Positions 52,628 through 60,930 of a stretch of DNA of 64,000 nucleotides are shown piece after piece. The DNA lies in the NCBI RefSeq assembly GCF_003337275.1, contig NZ_QPJQ01000008.1:62001-126000 (forward strand), given 5' to 3'. A model generated the notes under the pieces. The model saw only the letters and a list, made by a program, of their open reading frames with translations. It did not search any database and was not told where the DNA came from. Numbering within the stretch: the stretch's first letter is position 1; every line of letters starts with the position of its first letter. The translations under genes and the position numbers were made by a program. The stretch comes from Marinomonas foliarum (GTDB lineage: Bacteria; Pseudomonadota; Gammaproteobacteria; Pseudomonadales; Marinomonadaceae).

Positions 52628-53791
52628 ATGACTGTAATTAATATGAAAGACGTGGATCTGACGAACAAAAGAGTATTGATCCGTGAAGATCTTAACGTAC
52701 CTGTTAAAGATGGCAAAGTGACGAGTGATGCACGTATTCGCGCAGCCTTGCCAACTATTAAGTTGGCGTTAGCCGCTGGCGCTAAAGTGATGGTGATGTC
52801 ACACCTTGGTCGTCCAACAGAAGGGCAGTACGAAGAAGAATTTTCTCTTCAACCTGTAGCGACACATCTTGCTAGTTTGCTAGGGCAAGATGTGCCATTA
52901 GCCAAAGACTGGTTGGATGGCGTTGAGGTTGAATCTGGTCAACTTGTTTTGGTTGAAAACGTGCGTTTTAACCTTGGCGAGAAAAAAGATGACGAAACCT
53001 TGTCTAAAAAAATGGCGGCTTTGTGTGATGTGTTCGTAATGGACGCATTTGGAACGGCTCACCGTGCTCACGCATCAACTCACGGCGTTGCCAAATACGC
53101 GCCTGTGGCTTGTGCTGGCCCATTATTAGCTGCAGAGTTAGAGGCATTAGGTAAAGCGCTTGATAATCCAGCACGTCCTTTGGTTGCTGTGGTTGGTGGT
53201 TCAAAAGTATCGACTAAATTAACGGTATTAGAGTCCTTATCTAAAGTCTGCGATCAGCTGATCGTGGGTGGTGGTATTTCCAATACATTTGTTGCTGCTC
53301 GAGGCTACAATGTAGGTAAGTCATTGCATGAAAAAGATTTAATTCCTCAAGCTCAAAAGCTAATGGCTGACTTAGATATTCCTGAGTTGACAGATGTTCG
53401 TGTGGGCACAGAGTTTTCAGAAACGGCGGTTGCAACGATTAAGCCTGTTGACCAGGTAGCTGATAACGAGGAAATCATGGACTTAGGTCCGGATTCCGCT
53501 CAAGTGCTTGCTGATATTCTAAAAAATGCTAAAACCATTCTATGGAATGGCCCGTGTGGTGTGTTTGAGTTTGATAATTTTTCTAAGGGCACAGAGGTTG
53601 TTGCTCAAGCCATTGCTGATAGCGATGCCTTCTCTGTTGCTGGTGGCGGAGATACATTAGCGGCGATTGATAAGTACGGTCTGGCAGACAAGATTTCTTA
53701 TATTTCAACCGGTGGTGGGGCGTTTTTAGAATTTGTTGAAGGAAAAGTGCTTCCAGCGGTTGCGATGTTGGAATCACGCGCGCAAAATTAG
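52628..53791 (+). CDS. pgk: Phosphoglycerate kinase
   Basis: A 387-residue glycolytic and gluconeogenic kinase. [30 protein letters not shown] and [15 protein letters not shown] are in the N-lobe. [21 protein letters not shown] and AGGGDTLAA form the nucleotide-binding C-lobe. It lies 34 bases after epd. Confidence 0.97.
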
Positions 53792-55238: not shown

Positions 55239-55266
55239 TTGACCGAAAAACTCAATTACCTATAAT
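55239..55266 (+). promoter_or_regulatory. Sigma-70 promoter of tRNA-Leu
   Basis: TTGACC (55239-55244), a 16-base spacer, then perfect TATAAT (55261-55266). The following GC-rich GCTCGCC resembles the discriminator of stable-RNA promoters under stringent control. Confidence 0.85.
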
Positions 55267-55280
55267 GCTCGCCATTCCTT

Positions 55281-55365
55281 GCGGGAGTGGTGGAATTGGT
55301 AGACACGCTGGATTTAGGTTCCAGTGCTTCACGGCGTGAGAGTTCGAGTCTCTCCTTCCGCACCA
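55281..55365 (+). tRNA. tRNA-Leu, anticodon UAG
   Basis: An 85-base gene with acceptor stem GCGGGAG/CTTCCGC (one G-T pair). It has a D-arm with AATTGGTAGACACG, the anticodon TAG in GATTTAGGTT (55315-55317), a long variable arm (class II), the T-loop AGTTCGAGTC and an encoded CCA end. It strongly resembles E. coli leuW. It is a single tRNA with its own promoter and terminator. Confidence 0.96.
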
Positions 55366-55558: not shown

Positions 55559-56662
55559 ATGCATAGGCTTCGTATTTTTGTCGTATTCCTTTTTCTTGGA
55601 TGTGCTTGCCTGACAGCGCAAGCTGCAAATATGGCGTTAAATATTATGGACAGCCATGATTATTATCAGATGAGCCCGAGGCAAGGCCCTTTAGCCGAAC
55701 AGTTTACAACCATTATTAATTCTCCCCCTAGTCCAGTCCGAATAACGCAAAAAAGTGCGGTACGTATTGCGTTGTTTCTATTTGGGGATGAAGACTCTAT
55801 TGAAAATAGAGCGCTTCAGGTTGCGCTCAGAAAACGTATGCGAGAATTGGGCATTGATTATCGGTTGGATGTTTATCTAGATCGTACGGAAAGTGAAACA
55901 GATTTTTCGGCGTACCTTAAAATAGCTGCGACGCCTCCCGATTATATTGTGATGACGAAGCTTGGCTTTGTTCAGCGACGTTTTTTAGAGCGTTTTCTAC
56001 GAACGGGGAAGAGCAAAGTTATTTTGTATGATTTTGCCTCGCCGCTAACCCATTGGATGAATAATCCCCCACTAATGTATATCGGTTTTGATCAGAAAAG
56101 AGCAACAACTAGATTAGCAAGCTATCTTGATCGCCAATTGCCTCCAGAAACCACCATTTCAGCTTTGGTATTACCAGCCAGTTACCTTGGTCATTCACGT
56201 TGTGATTTATTTTTAGATGAAATGCTGAAGTACAACCGACAAGTTAGCCGTATCCGTGTCGTTGCAGATGATAAGGTGCAAGCGTTTAAGGCAGCGAAAG
56301 TATTCTTAAAAGAGACACCGACAGATTTTATTTTTAGTTGCTCTCAACATATATCTGAGGGCGTTGTTGCGGCTTTGGAAGAAGACTCTCCTGGCTTGAA
56401 GACGCAAACCAATGCGTGGGGATTGTCTCCTAATGGGATTGCGGATTTAGTCAACCGGAACGTCAAAGTGAGTGTTCTGTTTATGAAGGATGATTTATCC
56501 ATTGCTGTTGCTGAGGCCATTAAGCTTGATCTCGAAGGAAAGAACATGCCAGCTCTCTATGTTGGGAATTCAACCCTAATGCCTGCTGAATTAGACTCAG
56601 AGAGTTTACGTTTGATGGTTCAGCAAGCTTATCAATATTCGGTGGAATTATGGCAGCAGTAA
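55559..56662 (+). CDS. LuxP-like periplasmic binding protein with altered ligand pocket
   Basis: A 367-residue protein from ATG 55559; earlier in-frame codons to 55466 precede the signal peptide and are unlikely. Residues 1-22 are a signal peptide (FVVFLFLGCACLTAQA); Cys 15 is not in a good lipobox. The rest aligns by eye along its length with Vibrio LuxP: SPLTHWMNNPPLMYIGFDQK, DFIFSCSQHISEG, TNAWG, FMKDDLSIAVAEAIKLDLEG. Of remembered AI-2 contacts, Ser 80, Arg 214 and Trp 287 are kept. Q77, N159, T266, D267 and R310 of LuxP correspond to Glu 78, Asp 158, Gln 263, His 264 and Phe 308. It probably binds a different ligand. It overlaps the next gene by 13 bases. Confidence 0.82.
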   Translation: MHRLRIFVVFLFLGCACLTAQAANMALNIMDSHDYYQMSPRQGPLAEQFTTIINSPPSPVRITQKSAVRIALFLFGDEDSIENRALQVALRKRMRELGIDYRLDVYLDRTESETDFSAYLKIAATPPDYIVMTKLGFVQRRFLERFLRTGKSKVILYDFASPLTHWMNNPPLMYIGFDQKRATTRLASYLDRQLPPETTISALVLPASYLGHSRCDLFLDEMLKYNRQVSRIRVVADDKVQAFKAAKVFLKETPTDFIFSCSQHISEGVVAALEEDSPGLKTQTNAWGLSPNGIADLVNRNVKVSVLFMKDDLSIAVAEAIKLDLEGKNMPALYVGNSTLMPAELDSESLRLMVQQAYQYSVELWQQ

Positions 56663-59247
56663 CGGAGAGTTTACAGCGTCGATTACAGCAAAAATCGCTC
56701 TTGTTGATGGGCGCGATTTTTTTGGTCGTCGCATTATTAAGTGTCTTTTTTATTGAAACATTGACTCAAGCTGCGAAAGACAAAAACTTGGTGCTAAAGC
56801 ACCAAGTGGCTGAGCAAGCTTTTAATGCGTATTTAGCACGCGCTGAAGATGAGATGAAGTTTATTGGGCAAGACCTTTCTTCGAGTGACTATATTGCTGG
56901 GCGTGAGTTGGACTTATTATTCAGTCATCATGAAGTGTTGTTTTTCGGAGGTTTAGACTTTTTCTATATCGAATGGGCCAATGGTAACTCTTCCATGGAT
57001 CCAAGAGCTCGTCTGTTTACTAAGACGGACTTTAAAGCAGTCATTGGGGCAGGGCTGTTAAATCGGTGGGCATCTGTTAAGACAGACGATGGTGCATCCT
57101 TGCTGATGCTGAAAACGAAATTGTTATCGGCTGAGAAGGACAGTACTGGCTTTCTGTATGGCTTTATTTCATTAAATGACAATTTGACCTTAGCAAATGA
57201 GCTGTTGGAAAGCGCAGGTGTGAGTGCCGTTCGTATTTACGATGTGTCACATAACCGTGTTTTATTGGAAGAGCGTAAAGCGGGAGTGAATTTATCCAAT
57301 AATACATTGCGTGCGAGTTTGCCTTTAGTTTCACCTATTCAGGCAAATCTACAGTTGGATGTGATAGAAGCGCATTCCATTTCCTCTGCCATTTTTACGA
57401 ATGCTTTGCCGCTAATCCTATCTGTGGGTGTTGTTTTGTTGGTGTTTTATTTTTTGCTTGCTCGACAGATGAAAATATTAATCTTTCAGCCTATCGAAAC
57501 GGTAGTATATAAACATCAAGAAGAGCTTATTCCCTACATTGAGTTGCAGCCTATCCAACGTCAAAATCGTCAGCTTATGGCTGAGATTCAAGCGAAAAAT
57601 AAGCGTTTTCTTTTGCTATCAGACTCGATAAACAGTGCTGTTATCTTCTGCAATGAGGTTGCAGAAGTTGAGTTGATTAATAGCGAAGCCCGTCATGTTT
57701 TTCCTGATTCAGTCAAAGCCCGAACGCTTTTTGACTTTATGCCTATTGCCAGCCATCGATCTATTCAAGATGCATTGAAGGGTAATATCGGTATTACCTT
57801 TGATTTGACTATGAATGATTTAGGTCGGATATATCAATGGCAGGCTTATACATTTAGAAATGAAAATGACTACCGTGGTTTGCTATTGGTAGGGAAAAAT
57901 ATTACTCGAGAAACTAGCCTTACTTGGCAGTTAGAACAATTACATCCATTGTCATCTCTGGTAGAGAAAAAAGTAGATACGGATGCCATATTGAATGAAT
58001 TAAACTACCTTTCTACATTACCAGATCATATTGAATCAAGCCATTTACAAGGATGGATGACCTTGCTGTTGTCTGTTTTAGATGACATTAGTCAGCAAGA
58101 AACGGATGTCTCCTACCTTCCTCTTGGGGATATCTTTCGACAGGAAAGCGATAGAGTGATGGCAGCCATGGGCATGGAAGCTACGCGGGCGGTGGTTGAC
58201 TGTTCTGTTGAGTCTGGTAGCAAAGTCGTGGCGATAGGAAAGCATTTTCGTGGGTTGGTTCGTACGTTACTCATGATGGTTATGTCGAATGATATGGCCG
58301 AACGACGTTTAAGTATTCGATTTATCAGCGATATGGAGCTAGAGATCATCGCAATGAACGATATGGCTTTTCGGCCATTGTTTTTTTGGATGATTAAAAT
58401 GTTGTCTGAAAGTCTTGGTGGACAGAAACAAACACTTCAAAATAACGCTTTGCAGCTAAATTTAATGATGGAGGTTAACCACTCAGCAGAGGAAACTTTA
58501 TCGTTAAAACCAAACCAAGTTATCGCTTGGGTCGCCAATGATTATCCTTACGCTTCTAATATCACTGAGGCGTTACAAAGGTTTGGCTTGGAGGTGGAGG
58601 TGTATGCTTCTTCAGATAGCTTTTTTACTCAGTCCAGTGTTTTAACGAAGTTTGATGCGGTATTGATAGGTTGTGATAAAGACGTCCAATCTCAAATTGA
58701 TATGACATTGGCTCTCAAGCTGAAACATAAACGAGACCATCTTCCCGTTATTTGGCTGAATAGCCGATTCCCTTTACATATTGATGATAGTGTTTATACC
58801 TTGCAAGGTTGTTTCTTCGATTACAATTTGTATCAAGTGCTACTTAAGGCATGCGAAGAAGACGGGATCTCCATTGCACATTATAACGAAGAAGAAGTGT
58901 GTTGGGTGATGGTCGGTGGCAGCCGAGTCACCAAGGCTATTTGGTACAATGAACTGGATCAATGCACTATTGCCACGCAATGGCTGGCAGATTTGGTTGA
59001 TTATGATGTGGTGTTATCGTATCAGCCTAATGCCATTATCGTGTTGTTGGAGCCCCAGCCATCGGCTGTCATTTTAGCTGCACAGGCTGCTTTTCCTAAT
59101 GTGCGCTTCTATGCTGTACAAAAGTGGCTGGAAATGCCGGATAATGTGGTTGTGTTTGATTTGGTTTCACCTAACTCTGGTGAGAAAATACGGTTTTTTG
59201 CAAAAGATGTTATGCAACACAATACAAATTCTAGGAGTAATGAATGA
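56650..59247 (+). CDS. LuxQ-like membrane sensor with degenerate kinase and receiver domains
   Basis: An 865-residue protein. Transmembrane helices at 17-38 and 251-271 enclose a periplasmic region resembling LuxQ's tandem-PAS sensor (LLNRWASVKTDDGASLLMLK; TGFLYGFISLNDNLTLAN). A cytoplasmic PAS lies at about 318-420. Residues 430-610 have the position and faint shape of a histidine kinase, but no H-box (His-Glu/Asp-x-x-x-Pro) and no DxGxG or GxGxG nucleotide loops. Residues 622-735 and 748-850 look like two receiver folds; the first lacks the Asp (FDAVLIGCDKD), acidic pair and Lys. It is likely a pseudokinase relay. It overlaps the LuxP-like gene upstream and mtnN downstream. Confidence 0.75.
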   Translation: MAAVTESLQRRLQQKSLLLMGAIFLVVALLSVFFIETLTQAAKDKNLVLKHQVAEQAFNAYLARAEDEMKFIGQDLSSSDYIAGRELDLLFSHHEVLFFGGLDFFYIEWANGNSSMDPRARLFTKTDFKAVIGAGLLNRWASVKTDDGASLLMLKTKLLSAEKDSTGFLYGFISLNDNLTLANELLESAGVSAVRIYDVSHNRVLLEERKAGVNLSNNTLRASLPLVSPIQANLQLDVIEAHSISSAIFTNALPLILSVGVVLLVFYFLLARQMKILIFQPIETVVYKHQEELIPYIELQPIQRQNRQLMAEIQAKNKRFLLLSDSINSAVIFCNEVAEVELINSEARHVFPDSVKARTLFDFMPIASHRSIQDALKGNIGITFDLTMNDLGRIYQWQAYTFRNENDYRGLLLVGKNITRETSLTWQLEQLHPLSSLVEKKVDTDAILNELNYLSTLPDHIESSHLQGWMTLLLSVLDDISQQETDVSYLPLGDIFRQESDRVMAAMGMEATRAVVDCSVESGSKVVAIGKHFRGLVRTLLMMVMSNDMAERRLSIRFISDMELEIIAMNDMAFRPLFFWMIKMLSESLGGQKQTLQNNALQLNLMMEVNHSAEETLSLKPNQVIAWVANDYPYASNITEALQRFGLEVEVYASSDSFFTQSSVLTKFDAVLIGCDKDVQSQIDMTLALKLKHKRDHLPVIWLNSRFPLHIDDSVYTLQGCFFDYNLYQVLLKACEEDGISIAHYNEEEVCWVMVGGSRVTKAIWYNELDQCTIATQWLADLVDYDVVLSYQPNAIIVLLEPQPSAVILAAQAAFPNVRFYAVQKWLEMPDNVVVFDLVSPNSGEKIRFFAKDVMQHNTNSRSNE

Positions 59248-59939
59248 GCGTAATTGGATTAATCGGCGCCATGGATGAAGAAGTCGCAGTCATCAAAGCT
59301 TGGATGACAGACCTTCGAGAGCAGTCTATTGCTGGGTGTGATTTTTTTATCGGCCACTTTGAAGGTAAAGACGTTGTTTTGCTTAAATCTGGTATTGGTA
59401 AAGTAAACGCCGCTGTGTCTACTACATTGCTATTGTCTGAGTTTAATCCTGAATATGTGATTAATATTGGTTCTGCAGGAGGCTTCGATCCTGAACTACA
59501 GGTTGGCGATGTGGTGATTTCAGATCAGGTTGTCCACCATGATGTGGATGTGACCGCCTTTGGTTATGTTATGGGGCAAGTTCCCAATATGCCAGCGACT
59601 TACCCAGCCGATGTGGCTTTAATTAACAAAGCTAAGAGCGCCTTGCAAACAGTGACTCAGGTTCAAGCTAAAGTGGGTTTGATCGGCACTGGGGATAGCT
59701 TCATGAATGATCCGGTTCGTGTTGAAGCTGTGCGTGCAACATTTCCAGCCCTTGTTGCTGTTGAGATGGAAGCTGCGGCTGTTGCTCAAGTGTGTTTCAA
59801 ATTTGGAACGCCGTTCGTGGTAGTTCGTTCTTTATCTGATATCGCAGGAAAAGAATCACCTAAGAGTTTTGAGGAGTATCTAAAAGTAGCTGCTGAGAAT
59901 TCTTCTTTGATGATTCAACAAATGCTTAAAGGCGATTAG
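59244..59939 (+). CDS. mtnN: MTA/SAH nucleosidase (Pfs)
   Basis: A 231-residue enzyme that cleaves methylthioadenosine and S-adenosylhomocysteine, releasing adenine. Products feed methionine salvage and, with LuxS, AI-2 synthesis. IGLIGAMDEEVAVI has catalytic Glu 12, NIGSAGGFDP forms the nucleoside site, VEMEAAAVAQVC holds Glu 174 and Glu 176, and RSLSDIAG holds Asp 199. All are intact. Its ATG overlaps the stop of the LuxQ-like gene by four bases, so translation is coupled. Confidence 0.96.
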   Translation: MSVIGLIGAMDEEVAVIKAWMTDLREQSIAGCDFFIGHFEGKDVVLLKSGIGKVNAAVSTTLLLSEFNPEYVINIGSAGGFDPELQVGDVVISDQVVHHDVDVTAFGYVMGQVPNMPATYPADVALINKAKSALQTVTQVQAKVGLIGTGDSFMNDPVRVEAVRATFPALVAVEMEAAAVAQVCFKFGTPFVVVRSLSDIAGKESPKSFEEYLKVAAENSSLMIQQMLKGD

Positions 59940-59943
59940 TACA

Positions 59944-60930
59944 ATGAGATCGAAGGGTCGCATTGCGGCTTATTTAGTTGCATGCTGTCCCTTCTATTTA
60001 CTGGCTACAGATGAAGTGGCTAAAGCTGCGGAGACTCAGCCTGTAGATCAGCAGACGTCCGACGAAACTGAAATACCATGGTGGTTTAGTTCACATGAAA
60101 CAGTGTCAAATACGATCGGTAATTGGTCGACTAATATAGATTCTTTTTTGTCTGGTGAACCAAGCCTGCAGCATAATGATAGTTATGTGGAGATTCGATT
60201 TGGTTCAGTCTTAGAAAAGGATGAAAGCTCAGGTTTTTTTGATTTTAGTGCCAAATTAAGATTACCAAATACTCAAGATAGATTGCGTCTTGTCGTCGAG
60301 TCTGAGAGTGACTCTTTAGCTCCGGAAAGCCTACGAGGCGAATCTTCTCAGCAAGACAATGTAGTCAGTTCAGCCTTAAAAAACAGTATTTCTGCCGCTG
60401 TACGTTACATAAAAGAAGATATCGGCTTAGATGTTGACGCAGGGATAAAGGTGGATTTCCCTCTAGACCCTTTTTTGCGTTTTCGTTTAACGCAGGGAGA
60501 AGCAATTGGTTCGTTTGAATGGTGGCAGAAGCAAGAGGCGTTTGCCTATTATTCTAAAGGAGTGGGTGCGCGTTATGGTATTGGTGTTGGCTACGCTACT
60601 AGTCCGACACTGAACTTCGGAATGGATTTTGGTACCACTTGGTTAGATAAAGAAGGGCTTTTTTATGTACGAGAAAACTTTTCGATACAACATCGCGTGA
60701 ATGACAAAAATCGCTTGGGTTACCAATTGAGCTTCTTGCAATCTGGCGAACATAGTATTGAGCCGGATAGCTATTTATATAATGTTCAATACGAAAGGTT
60801 GCTTTATAAAGATTGGTTAATTGGACAAATCAAACCGCAAATGACTTATGAGGCCGAAGACGATTATGATGGCGTTTTTTCATTAACCTTGTCGCTGGCT
60901 ATTCTACTAGGGCCTGAGTATTTGCATTAG
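59944..60930 (+). CDS. Unknown exported protein in the LuxPQ-like operon
   Basis: A 328-residue protein starting four bases after mtnN. Residues 1-30 are signal-like (IAAYLVACCPFYLLATDEVA), though less hydrophobic than usual. Beyond residue 85 many alternating strands occur (YVEIRFGSVLE, FFDFSAKLRLP, GARYGIGVGYAT, LNFGMDFGTTW, NRLGYQLSFLQ, LYNVQYERLLY), ending LTLSLAILLGPEYLH. This suggests an outer-membrane beta barrel. No family is recognised. Cotranscription with the LuxP/LuxQ-like pair and mtnN is inferred from spacing. Confidence 0.7.
   Translation: MRSKGRIAAYLVACCPFYLLATDEVAKAAETQPVDQQTSDETEIPWWFSSHETVSNTIGNWSTNIDSFLSGEPSLQHNDSYVEIRFGSVLEKDESSGFFDFSAKLRLPNTQDRLRLVVESESDSLAPESLRGESSQQDNVVSSALKNSISAAVRYIKEDIGLDVDAGIKVDFPLDPFLRFRLTQGEAIGSFEWWQKQEAFAYYSKGVGARYGIGVGYATSPTLNFGMDFGTTWLDKEGLFYVRENFSIQHRVNDKNRLGYQLSFLQSGEHSIEPDSYLYNVQYERLLYKDWLIGQIKPQMTYEAEDDYDGVFSLTLSLAILLGPEYLH

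Follow-up and report, generated by a model that had tools for sequence, protein, structure and literature searches.

We analyzed a stretch of 64,000 nucleotides from Marinomonas foliarum (GCF_003337275.1, contig NZ_QPJQ01000008.1, positions 62,001-126,000 of the forward strand; hereafter the window), in which a LuxP-like gene (P), a LuxQ-like gene (Q), pfs and a gene for an exported protein (omp) lie close together. P-Q-pfs(-omp) is a real, genus-wide and constrained unit. New here is a variant of LuxPQ-derived sensing with a pseudokinase, in which the contacts to autoinducer-2 (AI-2) and the kinase motifs are lost throughout the genus. The Marinomonas P-Q pair probably signals by a different, non-enzymatic route, and we consider it moderately likely that it is a LuxPQ-derived pseudokinase sensor pair signalling by protein binding, as RetS and DivL do. 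The four genes were located as follows:

55559-56662, + strand: P, periplasmic binding protein, LuxP-like but lacking the known AI-2 contacts
56650-59247, + strand: Q, LuxQ-descended membrane protein with no recognisable kinase chemistry
59244-59939, + strand: pfs, 5'-methylthioadenosine/S-adenosylhomocysteine (MTA/SAH) nucleosidase
59944-60930, + strand: omp, which closes the unit; exported protein from a widespread family, possibly a beta-barrel

P and Q overlap by 13 bases and Q and pfs by 4 bases, while pfs and omp are separated by a 4-base gap. The unit is flanked by fba and a tRNA-Leu gene upstream and by trmA downstream. The tight packing had been described in a first-pass annotation of this DNA; its coordinates, overlaps and gap were confirmed, and the arrangement recurs across the genus.

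The phmmer search related P to the LuxP chains over residues 34-361 (E 8.6e-34), which identifies it as a homologue of LuxP-type periplasmic binding proteins; its score against Pfam Peripla_BP_4 (33.3 bits) was just below the cut-off of 35.1. According to the accessible text of PMC9687752, seven LuxP residues (Q77, S79, W82, N159, R215, T266 and R310) form hydrogen bonds with AI-2. The LuxP of V. fluvialis, which carries the same seven residues at the same numbers, served as numbering anchor. The genus sample comprised 48 genomes (36 in alignment A1 and 35 in A2); counts for P refer to all 48 and many of those for Q to 47, since L032 (G026, M. pontica) was left out of the Q alignments, as was L137 (same locus) from structure alignment A3, and the second LuxP pair of strain MED121 (L075) was excluded from the operon counts. 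For comparison, 20 canonical LuxPs were used, of which four are from Vibrio, one is the second MED121 copy and 15 belong to loci in other genera of the order. Q77, W82 and T266 were each absent from all 48 operon P proteins and each present in 20/20 canonical LuxPs, and R310 was found in a single operon P compared with 20/20. All seven contacts were present in 19 canonical LuxPs and six in the remaining one (R215C), while no operon P possessed more than three. Because Q77, W82 and T266 are gone from every operon P and kept in every canonical LuxP, AI-2 sensing by P is unlikely. In the phylogenetic tree the operon P proteins were set apart by a branch supported at 100/100, and for this group the tree program warned of long in-group branches.

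Two cysteines of P were invariant:

56201-56203, + strand: codon of Cys215 of P (LuxP position 216), Cys in 48/48 operon P proteins and Gly in 20/20 canonical LuxPs
56339-56341, + strand: codon of Cys261 of P (LuxP position 264), Cys in 48/48 operon P proteins and in 15/20 canonical LuxPs

They were the sole cysteines past residue 45 in 46 of the 48 operon P proteins; the other two contain one more, which is probably explained by a more upstream start of their frames. Cys261 probably pairs with Cys215 in a disulfide. Since residues 215 and 266 contact the same small ligand, such a bond could plausibly lie at the binding site.

Q scored 17.3 bits against Pfam LuxQ-periplasm, below the cut-off of 25.7, and a profile-profile comparison with five LuxQ-type kinases gave 99% probability (E 6.7e-18), assigning a LuxQ periplasmic domain to Q. 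A genome search of G000 with the Pfam profile gave no match at E 0.001, a miss that reflects the sensitivity limit because the fold search finds the domain. The kinship of P and Q with LuxP and LuxQ was thus upheld. A phmmer search of Q against the PDB returned nothing below E 0.13, and weak NCBIfam matches (PnpS, a sortase-linked regulator) were read as resemblance of the PAS and receiver parts. By sequence and predicted fold, Q retains the LuxQ periplasmic domain, a membrane anchor and a cytoplasmic PAS domain. The rest of the protein was predicted to fold into a histidine kinase-like (HK-like) part, with regions resembling the dimerization and histidine phosphotransfer (DHp) and catalytic and ATP-binding (CA) domains, and two receiver-like domains:

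56785-57384, + strand: Q residues 46-245, periplasmic domain with LuxQ fold
57547-57903, + strand: Q residues 300-418, PAS domain on the cytoplasmic side, better conserved than any other part of Q (96.5% to LuxQ by hhalign, E 8.6e-10)
57904-58485, + strand: Q residues 419-612, pseudo-DHp and pseudo-CA, lacking a conserved His, the G1 and G2 boxes and the place of the ATP lid
58486-58884, + strand: Q residues 613-745, pseudo-receiver 1; Gly (43/47) or Ala (4/47) at the place of the phospho-acceptor Asp
58885-59244, + strand: Q residues 746-865, pseudo-receiver 2, whose first strand ends in Gly-Gly 756-757

Motif and Pfam scans of 36 Q proteins detected neither HisKA with its phospho-acceptor His nor HATPase_c with its G boxes (0/36; control Vibrio LuxQ 2/2), and Response_reg was not matched in any of the 36 by Pfam. 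The first receiver-like domain lacks its phospho-acceptor Asp in all 47 sequences, and Gly-Gly 756-757, conserved in 47/47, would occupy the place of the acidic pair of receivers. The predicted model of Q is accordingly a kinase fold without catalytic motifs, in agreement with the first-pass annotation, which saw no recognisable catalytic centre.

Both P and Q were found in 48/48 genus genomes, and the direct order P-Q-pfs in 47 of them (the window and 46 of the 47 fetched stretches). The first-pass annotation had named two outcomes that would speak against it, namely that profile searches separate P and Q from LuxP and LuxQ or that the gene order is limited to this strain; neither occurred. 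In G026 (M. pontica) Q is cut off by the contig end, with more pieces of Q adjoining pfs on another contig. At this locus (L032 4103-6067) Q is split into several frames over two contigs, reflecting either sequencing error or a fresh pseudogene. A GTDB scan for Q with two peptide patterns returned 38 loci, all from Marinomonas, the nearest being M. alcarazii (87%); records near the window may be absent from that collection. The P and Q genes overlapped in 42/47 loci and lay within 30 bases in 44/47, as did Q and pfs in 46/47 and pfs and omp in 44/44. Gene starts were set mechanically by taking the earliest start codon in a frame, so that single overlaps are uncertain by some codons. In contrast, the median gaps at the flanks were 362.5 bases (fba-P) and 90.5 bases (omp-trmA, within 30 bases in 6/44). 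As it recurs genus-wide, the tight spacing of P-Q-pfs-omp is more than chance, and spacing far tighter inside the unit than outside suggests translational coupling.

Full-length P and Q frames were present in 47/48 genomes. In six pairs the ratio of non-synonymous to synonymous substitution rates (dN/dS) was 0.042-0.100 for P and 0.066-0.105 for Q; two further divergent pairs had saturated dS and gave no ratio. Calculated by domain, dN/dS of Q was at most 0.155 in 41 of 42 pair-by-domain values, and the other value (0.531) was obtained on a dS of 0.07. The lowest blastp identities to the window were 24% for P and 26% for Q, compared with at least 70% for pfs and at least 92% for fba. Low dN/dS together with low identity indicates that P and Q are constrained yet fast-evolving.

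Pfs matched TIGR01704 with 306.8 bits (cut-off 73.8), an equivalog-level assignment as MTA/SAH nucleosidase that agrees with the first-pass annotation. Among 47 sequences, Glu12 was present in 46 (Asp in one) and Glu176 and Asp199 in all, which we take to be the catalytic residues of Pfs. The operon pfs was the only full-length copy in 48/48 genus genomes; further weak partial matches at 21-27% occurred in G022 and G042. The omp gene followed pfs in 44 of 47 testable genus genomes. Its product matched OMP_b-brl weakly (E 0.0014, below the cut-off), and a profile search against PDB sequences gave no match.

For the pair as a pseudokinase sensor, the following mechanism may be proposed. P would still dock on Q in the periplasm and would report a state other than borated AI-2, either another ligand or the redox state of its cysteine pair. 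Q would relay this state through the PAS domain and the pseudo-DHp coiled coil and might act through binding to another protein, for which a further sensor kinase or a response regulator would be the most likely candidates, without phosphoryl transfer. Possible models, by analogy, are RetS with GacS, and DivL with DivK and CckA. Co-transcription with pfs would tie the level of P-Q to the activated-methyl cycle, and a direct, putative effect of P-Q on Pfs is possible. In a more far-reaching and rather doubtful version, LuxPQ would have been converted in this one genus to sense redox state or a metabolite, with the Cys215-Cys261 disulfide replacing the AI-2 pocket and an inert scaffold with partner-binding pseudo-receivers replacing the kinase, and would be coupled through the operon to Pfs, perhaps controlling Pfs directly. 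Such a rebuilt pair would be a signalling line from periplasm to cytoplasm without a phosphorylation step of its own, coupled to the single enzyme supplying AI-2 synthesis.

One alternative is ordinary LuxPQ quorum sensing, in which P binds AI-2 made by Pfs and LuxS, and Q acts as phosphorelay kinase and phosphatase. The LuxP and LuxQ kinship would agree with this, as would AI-2 supply: luxS was detected in 47/48 genus genomes, one Marinomonas isolate releases 692 nM 4,5-dihydroxy-2,3-pentanedione (DPD) according to the available text of PMC6685064, and a 2024 survey (PMC11069264), in its accessible part, places M. mediterranea among the AI-2 listeners on the strength of LuxP homology. However, the lost contacts in every P and the absence of kinase and receiver motifs and Pfam domains from all 36 Q make it very unlikely, and the sole genome without luxS, MED121 (G035), still keeps P-Q-pfs. 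Thus the genus makes AI-2 while its operon LuxP has lost the known means of binding it. A residual enzymatic output of Q would be consistent with the 2008 annotation of the MED121 protein (the accessible part of PMC2561040) and with the acidic residue 801 in 42/47 Q proteins, but Pfam matched no AAA, helix-turn-helix or other catalytic family in any of 36 Q proteins, among them that of MED121, and the predicted fold is HK-like with two receiver-like domains; this output is unlikely. P and Q could also be decaying remnants, retained only through their position upstream of pfs in one transcript, which would fit the lost catalytic motifs, their low identities relative to pfs and the fragmented Q of G026. 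Against this are the full-length frames, a dN/dS that is low inside the pseudo-domains too, and the invariant W, GG and Cys sites; decay was rejected on dN/dS and is extremely improbable.

To an alternative of another kind we would give slightly less than an even chance, namely that P-Q is a working independent sensor that merely has its promoter and a conserved chromosomal block in common with two housekeeping genes, pfs and omp, and that its linkage to pfs has no regulatory meaning. It is compatible with the pseudokinase sensor pair, which concerns what P-Q is. Several results that count against a joint system agree with it. In almost every stretch the gene order is conserved as far as pgk, fba, trmA and serA. 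Members of the omp family were found in 77/280 non-genus genomes of the order (90/293 searched in all), and no blastp match to omp was found at the locus in both M. spartinae genomes and MED121. The presence of pfs as a single full copy with its active-site residues kept, and the lack of a pfs match at any of 15 non-genus LuxP loci, fit it as well. In partial distance correlations over the 42 loci with all seven genes (window excluded), the highest values were Q-omp (0.46), P-trmA (0.45) and fba-pfs (0.42); one of these pairs lies inside the unit and two reach outside, so that no particular joint function is favoured, and P-Q (0.19) was lower than P-trmA. The tight spacing inside the unit, with the translational coupling that it suggests, argues for more than a shared block. 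The claim that the four genes form a joint system therefore stands as far as the tight unit with pfs is concerned, while joint function of all four is unproven, because synteny includes unrelated neighbours, the omp family is common, omp is missing at the locus in three genomes and the correlations are unspecific.

Other results weigh against the pseudokinase sensor pair itself. R215 (39/48), Trp289 (48/48), S79 (22/48) and N159 (12/48) are still present in operon P proteins, and with a pocket partly kept, P may possibly bind a sugar-like ligand. In Q, Asp631 next to Asn630, a member of the acidic pair in the first receiver-like domain, stays in 42/47 sequences, and residue 801, where the acceptor of the second would probably lie, is Glu in 29/47 and Asp in 13/47; since these acidic residues persist, residual chemistry in the receiver-like domains is possible. 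Residues 415-865 matched the LuxQ profile weakly (26% probability, E 7e-4), so the kinase ancestry of this part rests mainly on the predicted fold, and the full Q model had a pTM (predicted template modelling score) of 0.43. For the tandem Rossmann part of Q, the Foldseek hits also include sugar isomerases and proteins related to them (E 3.6e-4 and weaker). The binding partner of Q is hypothetical, and we infer the docking of P on Q.

The P-then-Q order, the LuxP homology, the LuxQ periplasmic fold, the PAS domain and the kinase/receiver layout are shared with Vibrio LuxP-LuxQ. The Marinomonas pair differs in lacking the AI-2 contacts and recognisable kinase chemistry, in having pfs downstream and in one more receiver-like domain than the single receiver of Vibrio LuxQ. 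The same domain order is found at L197 (G147, another genus of the order), a LuxP beside a hybrid kinase with two C-terminal receivers; unlike in Q, its catalytic domains are recognised by Pfam, its pocket is kept except for R215C, and no pfs match adjoins it. RetS binds GacS. The title of PDB entry 7n0e states this binding. Unlike the pseudokinase sensors RetS and DivL, Q also lacks the ATP-lid place and has altered receivers, and its partner is hypothetical; the input domains of RetS and DivL are presumably not LuxP-LuxQ. The pseudo-receivers of CikA and ShkA, as far as the accessible accounts describe them, are in kinases that autophosphorylate, while the kinase part of Q looks dead too.

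Part of this arrangement has been published. The accessible text of Rezzonico and Duffy (2008; PMC2561040) describes for MED121 a LuxP, a PAS protein with moderate homology to LuxQ, and pfs, gives the PAS protein AAA-ATPase and DNA-binding domains, and reports Marinomonas and other Oceanospirillales, including MED121, as luxS-negative. That operon is the same locus in one strain (L073 here), and across the genus luxS is now found in 47 of 48 genomes. The unit is thus not undescribed, as had been suggested, with regard to its gene arrangement; for the lost pocket and dead kinase of this pair, no published report was found in open-licence PMC literature, including the accessible part of PMC2561040. 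A recent study (PMC12268683) picks LuxP proteins by domain and name, and three of 267, chosen at random, bound AI-2; its accessible text names no Marinomonas. For Marinomonas, inferring an AI-2 receptor from a LuxP homologue is unsafe, because this LuxP is without the known contacts and this LuxQ without kinase motifs. If P-Q works, it would show as a natural experiment how a receptor of a phosphorelay can become a sensor that acts by binding only, and dozens of diverged orthologues, as well as canonical relatives that are intact, could serve as comparison material.

In an even sample of the order (390 genomes in all), no whole Q was found outside the genus; partial matches covering at most 210 of 859 positions occurred in 13/372 non-genus genomes. 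Rare or diverged relatives of Q elsewhere are possible, given the even sampling and the two peptide patterns of the GTDB scan. P matches were obtained in 17 non-genus genomes, of which 14 (15 loci) were fetched and G086, G151 and G397 (weak) were left out. Annotation was missing from three of the four Vibrio loci, for which luxP and luxQ were taken from frames and motif, and two of the four LuxQ were scanned. Pfam scans of ten LuxP partners (nine from the order and the second MED121 copy) detected HATPase_c in seven, GGDEF-EAL in two and no output domain in one, and the LuxQ periplasmic domain exceeded its cut-off in six. As the partners vary, the LuxP-LuxQ input module appears to be re-used with several outputs, the Marinomonas output being apparently inert.

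Several loci deserve mention. In MED121, L075 (2838-5902) encodes a further LuxP that retains the seven contacts, and its neighbour is a LuxQ-type protein in which HisKA and HATPase_c are recognised; MED121, which alone among the genus genomes gave no luxS match, might possibly listen to AI-2 through this pair. L199 (5467-9626, - strand) and L202 (3004-7184, + strand), from other genera, carry a LuxP with seven contacts beside a LuxQ-periplasm-PAS-GGDEF-EAL protein, perhaps wiring AI-2 input directly to enzymes of cyclic di-GMP. L210 (6409-9575, - strand) has a LuxP with seven contacts beside a 591-aa protein of LuxQ-periplasm and PAS-PAS with no Pfam output domain. At L080 (8070-11999) and L083 (1-4153), and similarly at L079, L081, L082 and L084-L086, a distant LuxP-like binding protein is accompanied by two more frames, one of comparable or greater size and a long one that in several cases runs off the stretch. 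These two frames of L080 encode another protein of the Peripla_BP_4 family and one with HAMP-GGDEF, and the long frame of L083 encodes HAMP-GGDEF and a partial EAL. At L090 (373-3519, G016), a second locus, LuxQ-periplasm was over the cut-off in a long frame with a GGDEF-like stretch, which sits behind a frame resembling another kind of binding protein.

Two features precede the unit in the window:

55239-55266: best sigma-70-like promoter match of the region, in front of tRNA-Leu (promoter scan, weak evidence)
55281-55365, + strand: tRNA-Leu (ARAGORN), upstream of the P-Q-pfs-omp unit

The promoter scan found four sigma-70-like sites, compared with a mean of 12.7 in shuffles, and none just before pfs, and is therefore uninformative. 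Further upstream, pgk (52628-53791) showed bimodal identity to the window among the 45 genomes with a long match (L031-L078), with 90-99% in 10, 72-79% in 35 and no intermediate values. These identities were out of step with those of the neighbour genes (97% in L042, 78% in L041), which suggests gene replacement at the pgk locus.
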